From positions 186,001-250,000 of the forward strand of contig CAIYNU010000022.1 in the NCBI GenBank assembly GCA_903927615.1: a DNA stretch of 64,000 nt, written 5' to 3'. The stretch is from an uncultured Rhodospirillales bacterium. Its GTDB lineage: Bacteria > Pseudomonadota > Alphaproteobacteria > Azospirillales > Azospirillaceae. Of this stretch, positions 16,829 through 31,175 are shown piece by piece (position 1 is the first letter of the stretch; each line of letters opens with the position of its first letter). The notes beneath the pieces were generated by a model. The model saw only the letters and a program-made list of their open reading frames with translations, did not search any database and was not told where the DNA came from. Made by a program: the position numbers and the translations under genes.

Positions 16829-17067
16829 CGCCCAACCCGAATGATGGATGACGCCTTAGACGACGTTGCTGGCGATAAACACCGGCAACACCGGTTCGGC
16901 CGGAGAGGAACGTCTGTAACCGCGCCCCCCTGTTGAGCCGCGACGCCCGCCTGATCTGTCGCAGGCGACTGCCTTCATGGATAAATTATCGTGCCCCGGC
17001 AGGCAAATGGATTCGGCATGCCAGCCCAGATCAAGTCAGGAGCAGCATCAAAGCCGGAGCAAACCGG

Positions 17068-17188
17068 CAGTGTTGTGAGCGAGGCGCGTGGTTGCTGACG
17101 ATCGTGTTGAGGGCACAACACACCATGCGGGAACAATGAGCGTCCCGGCCCGACCGAATGGGTGTGGTTCCGCAGAGTCGGAACACTG
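17068..17188. repeat. Dispersed inverted-repeat element, copy 1
   Basis: Bounded by CAGTGTT and AACACTG. The left half forms a hairpin of GTGTTGTG (17070-17077) with CACAACAC (17114-17121). The right half matches copy 2 (25984-26114) in the CGGCCC and GAGTCGGAACACT parts. Shared blocks such as CTGACGATCGTGT and GAGGGCAC show common descent, but the copies are clearly diverged. It contains no gene and resembles a MITE or REP-type element. Confidence 0.75.
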
Positions 17189-17323
17189 GTACCGATCAAG
17201 CGTGGTCGGCAATCAATAGCCCTCGCAATCCTCAATATTATGAGACTACCTTTCATGATTGAAGTGAATTTATGATGAAGGGCAATCAACGCTCGTCGCC
17301 ATCGAAACATACGGGCATATTCA

Positions 17324-24788: not shown

Positions 24789-25991
24789 ATGGACAGCCCT
24801 TTCGATTGCCTGATCGTCACCAATCAGCTCCAATGGGGCTTTTGCTACGAGATGATGACGGAAATCGAGGCAACTCTCTTAGCCAGAGGACTATGGGTCC
24901 GAAAATATGTGATCAATTCGACCCGGCTGGACGACGTCTCTCGGGCTATTCTTGAGGATATATTCCAGCAGTTGCGGCGCAATCCCAATCTGTTCATCGT
25001 CGACATGATGAACCGACGACGACTGAATTCATTGGAAGGCCTGCAACACGTTCCGATCTTCAACGTCTTCACCGATGCGCCTTATGTCATGTACGACGAC
25101 GTGCTATCCATGACGCCATCGTCGATCATCGGTTATTCCGATCGGAATCACCGCGAGTACCTGGACGACATGAACATCGGGGGCAAACAGGTGTTCTTTC
25201 CCCACGGCGGTCCCGAACCTGACACTCGATGGCCGTCAAACCGGGATCGGCCCATCCCGATTTTGCTGATGGCCCATTTCCGCCTGCGTCCGGACCGGCG
25301 CGCGTTTCTGGCGAGTTTCGGCGATCGCACTGATCCGTTGGTCTTGCGCCTGATCGATACCACCCTCGACCGCATCATCGATGGCAACCGGGAACCCTAT
25401 CTCGCCTTTAAGGACAGTTGCCGTGCGTTGTCGGTGGACTGGCGACAGGCCTTCACCGCCGAGACTGTGGCCAGACTGGTCGGTGAACTTACCATATGGG
25501 TCGAGCGGGAGGTTCGCTATCGTATTCTCCGGCAACTTGACGGATTGCCGGTCTACATCGCCGGGGTCATCGACGATGAATACTTCGACTGGCGGCCCGA
25601 GACCCTGGTCCGGCTCGGCCCCCAGACCACCACCGAGTGTCTGGCGCTGCTGCGCCAGACCAAAATCCTGTGTAACAGCATCGCCGTCCGTCCCGACGGG
25701 GCCCACGAACGCCTCTGGTACGGCGTGGCCAACGGCGCTGCTGTGCTGACCGACCCTTCTCCGTTTCTTGAGGCCGACTTCAAGAACGGTCGGCAGATGT
25801 TCTATTTCGACAAGGGCTATGGCCGGGTCCGCGAAACCGTTGAAACCATGCTCCATGATACTGATTTGGACGCGGTCACAGCCGCCGCCTGCCCGATTTA
25901 CCGTCGCCGGCACACCTGGGCACGCCGCATCTCGACGCTCCTTGAAGCGGTGGGACGATCGCGATCGCGCCAATCAGGGCACTGTCGCTAG
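24789..25991 (+). CDS. GT-B type glycosyltransferase-like protein
   Basis: A 400-residue protein that begins MDSPFDCLIVTNQLQWGFCY after AAGGAG five bases upstream. It has the layout of CgeB/DUF3880-like glycosyltransferases: a Rossmann-like N-half (FIVDMMNRRRLNSLEGLQHV, PIFNVFTDAPYVMYDD, VFFPHGGPEPD) and a C-half with AGVIDDEYFDWRPETLVRLG, TKILCNSIAVRPDGAHERLW, YGVANGAAVLTDPSPFLEAD and the end RRRHTWARRISTLLEA. The RPDGAHERLWYGVANGA segment is the donor-binding region seen in such proteins. The stop codon TAG (25989-25991) lies inside the terminal repeat of the element at 25984, so the C-terminal few residues may not be ancestral. Confidence 0.75.
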   Translation: MDSPFDCLIVTNQLQWGFCYEMMTEIEATLLARGLWVRKYVINSTRLDDVSRAILEDIFQQLRRNPNLFIVDMMNRRRLNSLEGLQHVPIFNVFTDAPYVMYDDVLSMTPSSIIGYSDRNHREYLDDMNIGGKQVFFPHGGPEPDTRWPSNRDRPIPILLMAHFRLRPDRRAFLASFGDRTDPLVLRLIDTTLDRIIDGNREPYLAFKDSCRALSVDWRQAFTAETVARLVGELTIWVEREVRYRILRQLDGLPVYIAGVIDDEYFDWRPETLVRLGPQTTTECLALLRQTKILCNSIAVRPDGAHERLWYGVANGAAVLTDPSPFLEADFKNGRQMFYFDKGYGRVRETVETMLHDTDLDAVTAAACPIYRRRHTWARRISTLLEAVGRSRSRQSGHCR

Positions 25992-26114
25992 TGTTGTGAA
26001 CGAGACGCTTCGTTCCTGACGATCGTGTCGAGGGCACGACACAACCCATTGAACAGGCAAGTGTTCCGGCCCAACGGGGTCGGAATGGTCCGTTGGAGTC
26101 GGAACACTAGCGAC
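25984..26114. repeat. Dispersed inverted-repeat element, copy 2 (MITE-like)
   Basis: A 131-base non-coding element with perfect 12-base terminal inverted repeats: GTCGCTAGTGTT (25984-25995) and AACACTAGCGAC (26103-26114). Inside are two potential hairpins: GTGTTGTG with CACGACAC, and GTGTTCCG (26061-26068) with CGGAACAC (26100-26107). It is homologous to copy 1 at 17068-17188. No target-site duplication is obvious. The left end overlaps the stop codon of the glycosyltransferase gene. Confidence 0.8.
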
Positions 26115-26185
26115 GATCGCGCCTAGCCTCGCCGGGTTAGGGATACGTCATCAAGCACCTTGCTCGATTTAAAGATGATCCTGGG

Positions 26186-26425
26186 ATGAATCAGGCAATG
26201 GGCAACCGCCTAACAGGGCGATTGGGACCTGAAGTTACGGGTGCAGATACATACTTTTACGTGCATGAAGTACTTGAATACTATAACATGGCAGAAGGCA
26301 TGAACGAAGAGGCCGCACACTGGATGGCATTCGATCAAGCTGCCGTGTCACCGTTCAACGTCTACCATCCGGATGTGATTCGCCGATTTCGGGATGCTTT
26401 GAACCCTGGTTTCCGTAAATATTAG
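26186..26425 (+). CDS. Orphan toxin-tail-like small protein, probably 5'-truncated
   Basis: A 79-residue product (from the ATG at 26186) containing GPEVTGADTYFYVHEVLEYY, NEEAAHWMAFDQAAVSPFNV and YHPDVIRRFRDAL. From memory this resembles C-terminal tails of polymorphic (Rhs/contact-dependent) toxins. The frame is also open upstream and reads sensibly (HLARFKDDPGMNQAMGNRL) back to a TAG at 26138-26140, just right of the inverted-repeat element. The true start may thus have been lost and the gene may be a detached fragment. Base composition is clearly more AT-rich than neighbours, pointing to transfer. No ribosome-binding site is seen. Function is not established. Confidence 0.45.
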   Translation: MNQAMGNRLTGRLGPEVTGADTYFYVHEVLEYYNMAEGMNEEAAHWMAFDQAAVSPFNVYHPDVIRRFRDALNPGFRKY

Positions 26426-26597
26426 TTGGCAGAAAGAAACACATACTACACATTAACAATGGTAAGCGTGCAACACTTTGGATTGATGAGTATCCACCAG
26501 CCGATTTTATCGGGTTGAGAGCGGTAAGGCGGCTGGTGTTTCCGTCAACCCGGAAGGAGCCCCGTTCAGGTCGTCGCTCATGACGAGAGGGGAAGAA

Positions 26598-26894
26598 ATG
26601 TCCGTGGGACTGATCGACGAATACGCCAAGGGCGTACTCAAAGGGGTCGAGAAAGCGAACGAACTATACGGCCTTCCATCAGGAGGTATCCTACGATTTC
26701 GCTGGGCCGCTCATGGGATCTACGGCTCGTCATGGCTGATCTTCGAGAACCTGGGTGGTCTGGTCGTGCGGCTTTTGACGTTGAAGAAGGACGCGACGGA
26801 GGAAGACATGAAAGATATTTTGGATAATGACTGGAGGGTGTACAATTGCTGGCTGGCCGCCGCATTCCTTTTCGGTCGTGGTCGATCCTGGTAG
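26598..26894 (+). CDS. Small protein, candidate immunity or orphan gene
   Basis: A 98-residue protein beginning MSVGLIDEYAKGVLKGVEKA. The ATG at 26598 is preceded by AGAGGGGAAG at good spacing, better than the in-frame ATG at 26580. The centre (GSSWLIFENLGGLVVRLLTL) is amphipathic or weakly hydrophobic and is followed by an acidic stretch (KKDATEEDMKDILDND). The size, acidity and position 172 bases downstream of a toxin-tail-like gene fit an immunity protein, but I recognise no family. Composition is less GC-rich than the surrounding genes, as for its neighbour. Confidence 0.45.
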   Translation: MSVGLIDEYAKGVLKGVEKANELYGLPSGGILRFRWAAHGIYGSSWLIFENLGGLVVRLLTLKKDATEEDMKDILDNDWRVYNCWLAAAFLFGRGRSW

Positions 26895-26895
26895 T

Positions 26896-26934
26896 AAACA
26901 AAACGGTGGGTTGGATGCCTGGCGTTCAACCCAC
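26896..26934 (-). terminator. Probable rho-independent terminator on the minus strand
   Basis: Read on the minus strand, GTGGGTTG and CAACCCAC (8 bp, 13-base loop) are followed by CGTTTTGTTT. It begins immediately after the end of the 98-residue gene on the other strand and supports transcription leftward from the 26956-27123 frame. Confidence 0.5.
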
Positions 26935-26955
26935 AGCCACCGTCCAAGCACCCTT

Positions 26956-27123
26956 TTAACATACCCCACCCACCATCTGCTCTAACCAGAGCTTTCTTCT
27001 TCGATAACGGACAACCAATCGATAGTACGCAATTACTAATCTAAGATTGCGCCATCGTGTCCATGCAGGCATACTTTCCTCTGGATCTATGGCCGGACTG
27101 GTGGCATGATCGGGGCGTCTCAC
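26956..27123 (-). CDS. Possible small basic protein
   Basis: A GTG-started frame of 55 residues with GAGGAGG six bases upstream. The product is basic, with the helical stretch WRNLRLVIAYYRLVVRYRRR near its C-terminus, perhaps membrane-associated. A T-tailed hairpin lies 22 bases beyond the stop. These two signals are the only support; no homologue is recognised. Confidence 0.35.
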   Translation of the reverse strand: MRRPDHATSPAIDPEESMPAWTRWRNLRLVIAYYRLVVRYRRRKLWLEQMVGGVC

Positions 27124-27327
27124 AGGCATCCTCCTCACGGAACCGTCTGGAACGGGGGCAACCCGACTTCGACAACGGTTCGCCGGCTTCCGGCGGAGCT
27201 GGCTCGTCTTCGTCATCGGTTTCGTAGGGCACGATCACGTCGGCGTTGGCCGGTTCAGGTGCCGTGTTCGCGGGCCTTCCAATCAGGACACTAGCCGCGC
27301 CCGGCATCCCGGGTTACACTGCACACC
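27124..27327. other. Intergenic region between the small-protein cluster and the SDR gene
   Basis: About 200 bases with a minus-strand acidic/proline-rich open frame (ADVIVPYETDDEDEPAPPEA) that has no ribosome-binding site and runs out of frame with the small protein downstream. It may be the decayed 5' part of that gene. No promoter is clear. Confidence 0.3.
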
Positions 27328-30299: not shown

Positions 30300-31175
30300 A
30301 TGCATTACGATATCACCCTCCGCTCTCTTTTTCTGCTCGGCGTCCCGGCGCTCCTAGGCATGATCGCCGGGATACCGGCGGTCCGGGTGCTGCCCGGCGA
30401 ATTCCCAACGGCCCGGGAGCGTCGCGCTGATGTGGTTGTCGGATTGGCCGACGGACGTTTGCTCCATCTGGAACTCCAAACCGGCGCCGATCTGACCATG
30501 CCATGGCGGATGTTGGAATATTACATCCTAATCACCACCGCCAATGGCTACGCCGAACTGCTCCAGGTCGTTCTTCACGTCGGAAGCGGGCCTGCGCCGA
30601 CCACCGGCGGTTTGGTCCGTCCCGGCCTCTCGTTCCAGTATCAGGTGATCGACATCCGGAACCTGGATCCGGCACCGCTGCTGGCCAGCTCTGCGCCTGC
30701 CGACACGGTTCTGGCCTTTCTGGCCAGGTGCGACGATATTGGCAAGCGGGCACGGGAGATTCTGGCTAAACTGGCAACGCTGCCTGAGCCGACGCGGCGG
30801 GATGCCATCGCCCAGTTGCTGATCCTGAGCGGCCTGCGCGGTGCAACCTCAGTGGTCTTGACGGAGATCAAAGCGATGCCGATTCGGATCGAGATCGAGG
30901 AAAACCCTTTTCTACGTGACCTCGTTCTTCGGGGCGAAGCTCGGGGCGAGGCTCGGGGCGAAGCTCGGGGCGAAGCTCGGGGCGAAGCTCGGGGAAAGGC
31001 GGAAGGCAAGATGGAGTCGCTCCTTCGGTTAACCGAGCGGCGTTTCGGGCCATTAGCCCGGGAAGAGCGTGAGCGCATCCGGTCCGCGGATCCACAGACC
31101 CTCGAGATGTGGTTTGACCGGGCAATCGACGCTCCGGAACTGGCGATGGTGTTCGACGACCCGCTCACGCACTGA
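30300..31175 (+). CDS. Rpn-family PD-(D/E)XK nuclease (recombination-promoting type)
   Basis: A 291-residue member of the Rpn/PDDEXK transposase-like family, seen in many copies in bacterial genomes and shown for some members to be DNA endonucleases that promote recA-independent recombination. The nuclease core is RRADVVVGLADGRLLHLELQ (Asp, then E-x-Q) after the N-terminal YDITLRSLFLLGVPALL. A segment of five GEAR repeats (from 30931) precedes the C-terminal helical domain (ESLLRLTERRFGPLAREERE) of DUF4351 type. The ATG at 30300 was chosen over a TTG six bases earlier. It lies 20 bases after hisI without obvious linkage. Confidence 0.85.
   Translation: MHYDITLRSLFLLGVPALLGMIAGIPAVRVLPGEFPTARERRADVVVGLADGRLLHLELQTGADLTMPWRMLEYYILITTANGYAELLQVVLHVGSGPAPTTGGLVRPGLSFQYQVIDIRNLDPAPLLASSAPADTVLAFLARCDDIGKRAREILAKLATLPEPTRRDAIAQLLILSGLRGATSVVLTEIKAMPIRIEIEENPFLRDLVLRGEARGEARGEARGEARGEARGKAEGKMESLLRLTERRFGPLAREERERIRSADPQTLEMWFDRAIDAPELAMVFDDPLTH
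30931..30990 (+). repeat. Five tandem 12-base repeats inside the Rpn gene
   Basis: GGGGCGAAGCTC repeated five times (one copy has A to G), encoding a GEAR repeat in the protein linker. Copy number is in multiples of three bases, so slippage would change linker length without loss of frame. Repeats of this sort are common in the family. Confidence 0.85.

Follow-up and report, generated by a model that had tools for sequence, protein, structure and literature searches.

Short CTAG-bounded repeats in an uncultured Rhodospirillales genome as probable miniature elements with IS630-type ends

The window, a stretch of 64,000 nucleotides from an uncultured Rhodospirillales bacterium (GCA_903927615.1, contig CAIYNU010000022.1), carries two copies of a short repeat on its forward strand. 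Copy 2 (25988..26110, +) is a young copy of sequence type A, 97-98% identical to seven other copies, with a full length of 123 bp including a CTAG at both ends. It adjoins a glycosyltransferase-like gene (called from 24909), whose TAG stop codon at 25989..25991 (+) lies inside the left CTAG of the element. Copy 1 (17067..17189, +) is old and diverged, with no more than 73% identity to each of the other 33 copies in the alignment. Its ends, GCAG ... CTGG, are decayed, as the initial annotation had said, and the size of about 120-130 bases and the non-coding character proposed there agree with a short, non-coding element of 123 bp. Between copy 2 and an SDR gene (27328) lies a segment of ~1.2 kb (26111-27290) that the orthologous gene pair of a congeneric genome (G004) lacks; it has a CTAG near its right edge and two small ORFs, neither of which has a Pfam match. 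A tandem 12-base repeat, TCGGGGCGAAGC, is found at 30929-31006, with five overlapping 30-nt copies.

The ends common to copies of the element are CTAGTGTT...AACACTAG, and the perfect shared end is 8 bp, the CTAG target included. The left terminal inverted repeat of copy 2 lies at 25988..26007 (+; CTAGTGTTGTGAACGAGACG) and the right at 26091..26110 (-), reading inward as CTAGTGTTCCGACTCCAACG. The perfect 12-base ends first reported for this copy are literally present as an inverted repeat, GTCGCTAGTGTT/AACACTAGCGAC, but their outer four bases are host DNA. The GTCG at 25984..25987 and its partner CGAC at 26111-26114 are flanking sequence that extends the repeat by chance, in one of 34 copies. 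Among these 34, complementary bases beyond the terminal four number none in 27, one in five, two in one and four in copy 2.

Copies 1 and 2 align over 54 nt at 87% identity without gaps, and a full-length alignment was also made. Their likeness is not due to chance, because BLAST with copy 2 alone retrieves copy 1 among its genome matches at E 6e-14. A profile of 34 copies returned only 25988-26110 (E 1e-40) and 17069-17187 (E 4.7e-26) above the inclusion threshold in the window, the next match being at E 0.032; the first two E-values are flattering, as both copies are among the 34 profile sequences. The two related, same-strand copies of the initial annotation are thus real and lie where it had placed them. 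As far as searched, they also belong to an undescribed element: the window has no match to Rfam at gathering scores, and 72,556 plasmid records contain no match to the element. A literature search, with most subscription papers outside its reach, gave among the papers listed no recognised account of this repeat or of ISAzs31 MITEs.

A search for further copies had been suggested, and the element proved to be repeated throughout its own genome (G000; 4.57 Mb in 104 contigs). BLAST with copy 2 gave 46 rows, corresponding to 40 distinct places and 6 palindromic cross-hits; the count is at least 40 places, with 40 of 61 candidates scored. A covariance model built from 41 sequences gave 54 rows at 53 distinct places (rough E <=0.001), among the best 60 of 2269 candidates scored. 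Two main sequence types were seen. Type A, which has GTTCCTGACGATCGTGTCGAG and includes copy 2, is represented by the ten copies nearest copy 2 (itself included), at least 93% alike with a mean of 97%. Type B has CATACCCAATGATCGTGTCCCGGTCAC and comprises five copies, at least 94% alike and again with a mean of 97%. Counts of ends, flanks and gene context refer to 34 of the 40 own-genome places; L028, L035 and L037-L040 are omitted, an end not being placeable. By a simple gene caller, 1 of the 34 copies overlaps a called gene, against 4498 of 6800 random windows.

Five of 58 relatives were matched by the covariance model: G003 (11 rows) and G004 (4), of the same genus, and G009 (9), G013 (2) and G026 (1), of the same family, some rows being one place on both strands. 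The matches in G013 and G026 are weak, at one place each. The congeners G001 and G002 gave no covariance-model match in a search that covered the best 60 candidates in most genomes under stricter filters. BLAST alone found matches among the relatives in G003 and G009. A pattern scan of genome contigs returned six stretches, five of them in the uncultured Rhodospirillales MAG Umea3_bin-0647. The sixth, in a Spartobacteria MAG, was taken as chance, since the sequence after the pattern is not the element.

Empty sites in related strains, a check proposed at the outset, were sought by joining the flanks of each copy and searching four congeners. The search covered 29 of the 34 copies, L006, L019, L020, L024 and L036 being omitted because they lie at contig starts or beside another repeat. 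Eight copy/locus pairs, picked for flank cover, were aligned from the joined-flank matches listed. In one, L018 in G004, the left flank alone aligned, and this pair was excluded from the count. The remaining seven represent four copies with usable orthologous sites (L007, L030, L031 and L034), and the element is absent in all seven. The cleanest empty sites are those of L034 and L031 in G004. At the former, the aligned flanks are closer together by 128 bp, the exact length of the L034 copy; at the latter they are closer by 116 bp, the L031 copy being 121 bp. The element is also absent at the L034 site in G002 and G001 and at the L030 site in G002, where the intergenic sequence is not alignable base by base. 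At the L007 site in G002 and G003, the gene concerned terminates in ...CGGCGCTAG and the element does not follow, while the same CTAG is already present at the gene's stop codon. These comparisons are made between diverged species, with 71-85% identity near the site, and do not resolve the duplicated dinucleotide.

For the window copies themselves, a profile search of the surroundings of two orthologues in G002 and G004 (75-80% identity), those of the left neighbour gene of copy 2 and the right neighbour gene of copy 1, found no element. The genes beside the window copies have distant or no matches in G001 and G003. In G004 the genes flanking copy 2 are ~64 bp apart between aligned ends, compared with ~1.3 kb in the window. 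Beside the copy 2 neighbour gene in the relatives there is no element, and no base-level empty site either. Conservation of the same position in relatives, which would point to an ordinary regulatory structure, was therefore not seen at the orthologous sites examined.

Other repeats occur in the vicinity of some copies. One is a second repeat of ~187 bp with different inverted ends (CTAGTGTGTCGTGTCAGCAAAATTGC ... GCAATTTAGCGGACGYGGCCCACTAG), found at L024:1312-1498 (G000:C41:68422-68606) and many other places in the genome. It gave at least 80 rows, not distinct places, with part of the candidates scored. This repeat is often bounded by CTAG and often lies at contig ends. At L019 and L024 it stands directly against one of the 123-bp copies, with one CTAG-like junction in common. 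In its ends it is similar to another IS630 element, L158 1380-2579 (CTAGTGTCCCGTTTCAG). Membership of the 187-bp repeat in the 123-bp family was rejected, as the ends differ. The right flank of L007 and flanks of L004, L026, L027 and L029 match many further places in G000, G002 or G004, and therefore other small repeats (such as GGGAGCGCGGGCGTCTCGCCCGCC) adjoin elements.

Internally, copy 2 consists of two palindromic half-units, hairpin unit 1 at 25991..26042 (+; GTGTTGTG ... CACGACAC) and hairpin unit 2 at 26058..26110 (+; CAAGTGTTCCGGCCCAACGG ... CCGTTGGAGTCGGAACACTAG). Its fold contains both hairpins and beats all 200 shuffles on either strand (z -6.0 on + and -4.5 on -, the folded stretch taking in 4 extra bases on each side). 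Copy 1 folds no better than its 200 shuffles (z -0.3 and -0.5; 73 and 53 shuffles equal or better). The sharing of both hairpins by the two copies, as first claimed, holds for the first stem, which is present in the minimum-energy fold of copy 1; the second hairpin is not formed there as in copy 2. RNAalifold was applied to 41 sequences (alignment A2: 34 copies, four G003 matches and three diverged own-genome copies). It gave 14 consensus pairs, 0 of 14 with two-sided change, and a covariation term of +0.23. There is no evidence of selection on an RNA.

The element has the look of a fusion of two half-units, each hairpin resembling one such unit flanked by similar ends. Unit 1 is found alone at C87:117686 (CTGGTGTTG...CAACACCAG) and in G003 (L055 and L056), and unit 2 alone at C61:11788 (CTCGTGTTCCG...CGGAACACGAG). 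The G003 loci L046 and L055 have both flanks in common, one with both units and the other with unit 1 only, a difference that fits a loss of unit 2. We infer that both hairpins are palindromes that arose from transposon ends and that no RNA function is required to explain them. In L022 and L024 an identical 19 bp, located between two GTCGGAA direct repeats, is missing from the second hairpin, and L101:3155-3258 (G000:C6:70654) is a unit-1-only form whose loop is seemingly enlarged by tandem repeats (CATCCCCARTGACGCT).

Full-size elements with similar ends, all ending in CTAG, were found in G009 (1109 bp), in G026 (1166 bp) and as ISAzs31 of Azospirillum sp. B510 (1166 bp). The last, identified among the matches listed (12 of 562 records), is situated on a B510 plasmid; matching ends 1166 bp from each other enclose its transposase, which shares 92.7% identity with the transposase of G026. 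Both the G009 and the G026 transposases match DDE_3 and the NCBIfam IS630 model NF033545, with 254.6 bits (E 1.4e-75) and 280.6 bits (E 1.6e-83), respectively, against a cut-off of 100.

Alignment of the ends to a parent transposon, as originally advised, relates each side of the element to the corresponding side of these insertion sequences. Over the first 20 bases, the left end shares 13-18 with five IS left ends (13-17 for copy 2 and 14-18 for the type B consensus; at least 16 with four of the five) and 12-15 with five IS right ends. The right end shares 16-19 with the IS right ends and 13-17 with the left. These 20-base counts are partly ascertained, as the first 13 end bases (more for a remnant in the genome itself, on C81) belonged to the search patterns. 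At positions 14-20, G009 agrees with type A in 7/7 bases on each proper side versus 3/7 on the wrong side, and ISAzs31 in 5/7 and 6/7 on the proper sides versus 3 and 3 on the wrong sides. Shuffled IS bases equal the values for the type B left end with G009 and for the type A right end with ISAzs31 in ~0.5% of trials each. No left/right preference was found over positions 14-30, and for the type A right end the better fit in the C81 remnant is to the IS left end (17 versus 16 of 20).

The own-genome search found only two IS remnants, both deleted forms. The remnant at C81:45964-46374 is 411 bp long, starts CTAGTGTTCTGACCGCAACG and finishes GTCGGAACACTAG. It contains a short frame in which the first and last parts of an IS630 transposase are joined (74% and 89% identical to the G009 protein). 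Neither Pfam nor NCBIfam gives a match to the 110-aa product, whose identity is taken from its match with the G009 transposase. The second remnant (C18) abuts copy L006, with a CTAG-like junction in common. No intact DDE_3/IS630 transposase with these ends was found in the genome by the pattern used, one weak DDE_3 match on C63 being without such ends; in an assembly of 104 contigs a parent copy may have been collapsed or missed. Six more distant IS630 elements (L139-L142, L144 and L158; 51-59% protein identity) likewise have no such end pair by that pattern. Two other candidates for the parent were rejected: DDE_Tnp_1 (PF01609) has no match in the genome, and the ORFs of at least 120 aa adjoining the truncated copy L040 (C27) include, by eye, no transposase. 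The parent is likely to be an IS630-family insertion sequence like ISAzs31.

The target of the element appears to be the sequence CTAG, which is found 18 times in the window, where base composition predicts 216. Tenzen and Ohtsubo reportedly found in 1991 that IS630 of Shigella sonnei prefers the TA in 5'-CTAG-3'. That insertion sequence, likened here by target site and not by its ends, shares the CTAG preference with the present element but is autonomous. Among the 34 copies, CTAG is present at the left end in 22, at the right end in 17 and at both ends in 14. The right end reads CGAG in 12 of the 34; at the left, CGAG is seen in 1 of 34 and CTCG in 2. Such right ends are not easily produced by decay of a TA duplication. 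Hairpin-templated correction would give a CGAG end together with a CTCG arm; CGAG ends do tend to accompany an internal CTCG arm, but the trend is no more than suggestive (Fisher p 0.06).

For 8 of the 34 copies, one of them copy 2, the TAG of the terminal CTAG is at the same time the stop codon of an adjacent gene, as called by a simple gene caller. Among 43 other CTAG sites in 186 kb of the genome, 19 are coding, 21 intergenic and 3 at stops. The placement of 8/34 compares with 3/24 non-coding CTAG sites (p 0.33) and with 3/43 sites in all (p 0.05), and is not clearly above the CTAG target background. At L007 the stop predates the insertion, judging from the relatives G002 and G003. Insertion at an amber stop codon would leave the stop intact because CTAG would be re-formed.

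The unit observed is therefore 123 bp long, present in many dispersed copies, nearly always outside called genes and absent at the orthologous sites examined, with two different ends like the left and right ends of ISAzs31-type IS630 elements. Both window sequences are very probably copies of a MITE, a short non-autonomous transposon, apparently mobilised in trans by an IS630-family transposase into CTAG. Confidence is placed no higher because part of the end match was ascertained by the search patterns and the likeness weakens beyond 20 bases. The initial annotation had likened the copies to MITEs moved by a transposase encoded elsewhere, and this interpretation is borne out by the 40 or more to 53 dispersed copies, the empty orthologous sites and a plausible parent with matching ends. 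According to the available part of the work on ISY100 (PMC2170065), IS630-family elements are excised and inserted at TA with TA duplication. In the present case, an IS630-family transposase supplied in trans would bind the GTGTTNNGAC ends, excise the element and join it to the TA within CTAG. The TA would be duplicated, and the outer G and C of the element would restore CTAG on both sides. The youngest copies (~97% identical) point to a fairly recent burst. The family may be stranded now, because no intact parent was found in this assembly.

The second proposal of the initial annotation, a REP/BIME-type repeat with two hairpins and a short tag moved by a RAYT (Y1 tyrosine) transposase, is set aside on end structure. 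REP dimers, in the available part of PMC3733652, are comparable in size, intergenic position and possession of two hairpins, and their 20-40 bp palindromes carry GTAG or CGTC tags. The ends seen here are instead CTAG-type inverted repeats running into IS630-like ends, and the parent found encodes a DDE transposase, which makes a REP origin highly improbable. Equally hard to sustain is the view that a conserved structure of ordinary regulatory or RNA type (attenuator, terminator or sRNA) was duplicated in the genome. The fold of copy 2, far better than shuffles, and the stop codons within terminal CTAG speak for such a structure. Against it stand the absence of two-sided change and of Rfam matches at gathering scores, the lack of the element at the orthologous positions examined and a copy 1 no more structured than shuffles; the stop-codon placement does not clearly exceed its CTAG background.

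A related suggestion accepts a MITE of an IS630 relative and adds that the hairpin units were recruited at the 3' ends of genes to shape mRNA decay, as argued for ERIC. The eight stop codons inside terminal CTAG and the strong hairpin of copy 2 would agree with this, and the available text of a review (PMC2229807) offers ERIC as a precedent for a role in mRNA decay. As there is no covariation, and as CTAG target choice with loss of gene-breaking insertions can explain the stop placement, co-option is considered improbable. A broader version would see the element as built from two palindromic half-units that are mobile separately, both of them bearing IS630-type ends on either side. Its terminal CTAG would make insertion neutral to stop codons, and its hairpins would come to lie right at the 3' ends of genes, with an influence on mRNA decay. 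This combination is thought unlikely. The preferred reading remains a MITE mobilised by an IS630-family transposase.

Short repeats of this kind have been described in other bacteria. As given in the accessible part of a review (PMC2229807), RUP of Streptococcus pneumoniae is a 107-bp intergenic repeat with ends like IS630-Spn1 and TA insertion, and is named there as the sole case with an IS match. ERIC/IRU/RU-1 of enterobacteria, in the same text, is 127 bp long and intergenic, with TA at its ends. The latter resembles the present MITE in size, intergenic place and TA ends, by description and not by sequence. RUP and IS630-Spn1 share with it the short intergenic form and IS630-type ends, again likened by description and not by end comparison. 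They differ in host, whereas the present family has a CTAG site, two hairpin halves and no intact parent found in its host. ISAzs31 and its G009 and G026 relatives share left ends (16-17/20 for ISAzs31), right ends (18-19/20) and CTAG borders with the MITE. Unlike it, ISAzs31 (1166 bp) carries a transposase, and the likeness is weak beyond ~20 bp at each end. With pneumococcal RUP/IS630-Spn1 as precedent, the repeat is filed as a new family of IS630-type MITE, of a known kind. It adds an alphaproteobacterial case in which a bacterial MITE is tied to a specific IS630 subgroup by both ends, with empty sites. The two-half anatomy provides a testable case for the construction of miniature elements, and the CTAG target suggests a way for small elements to occupy stop codons while leaving the protein unchanged.
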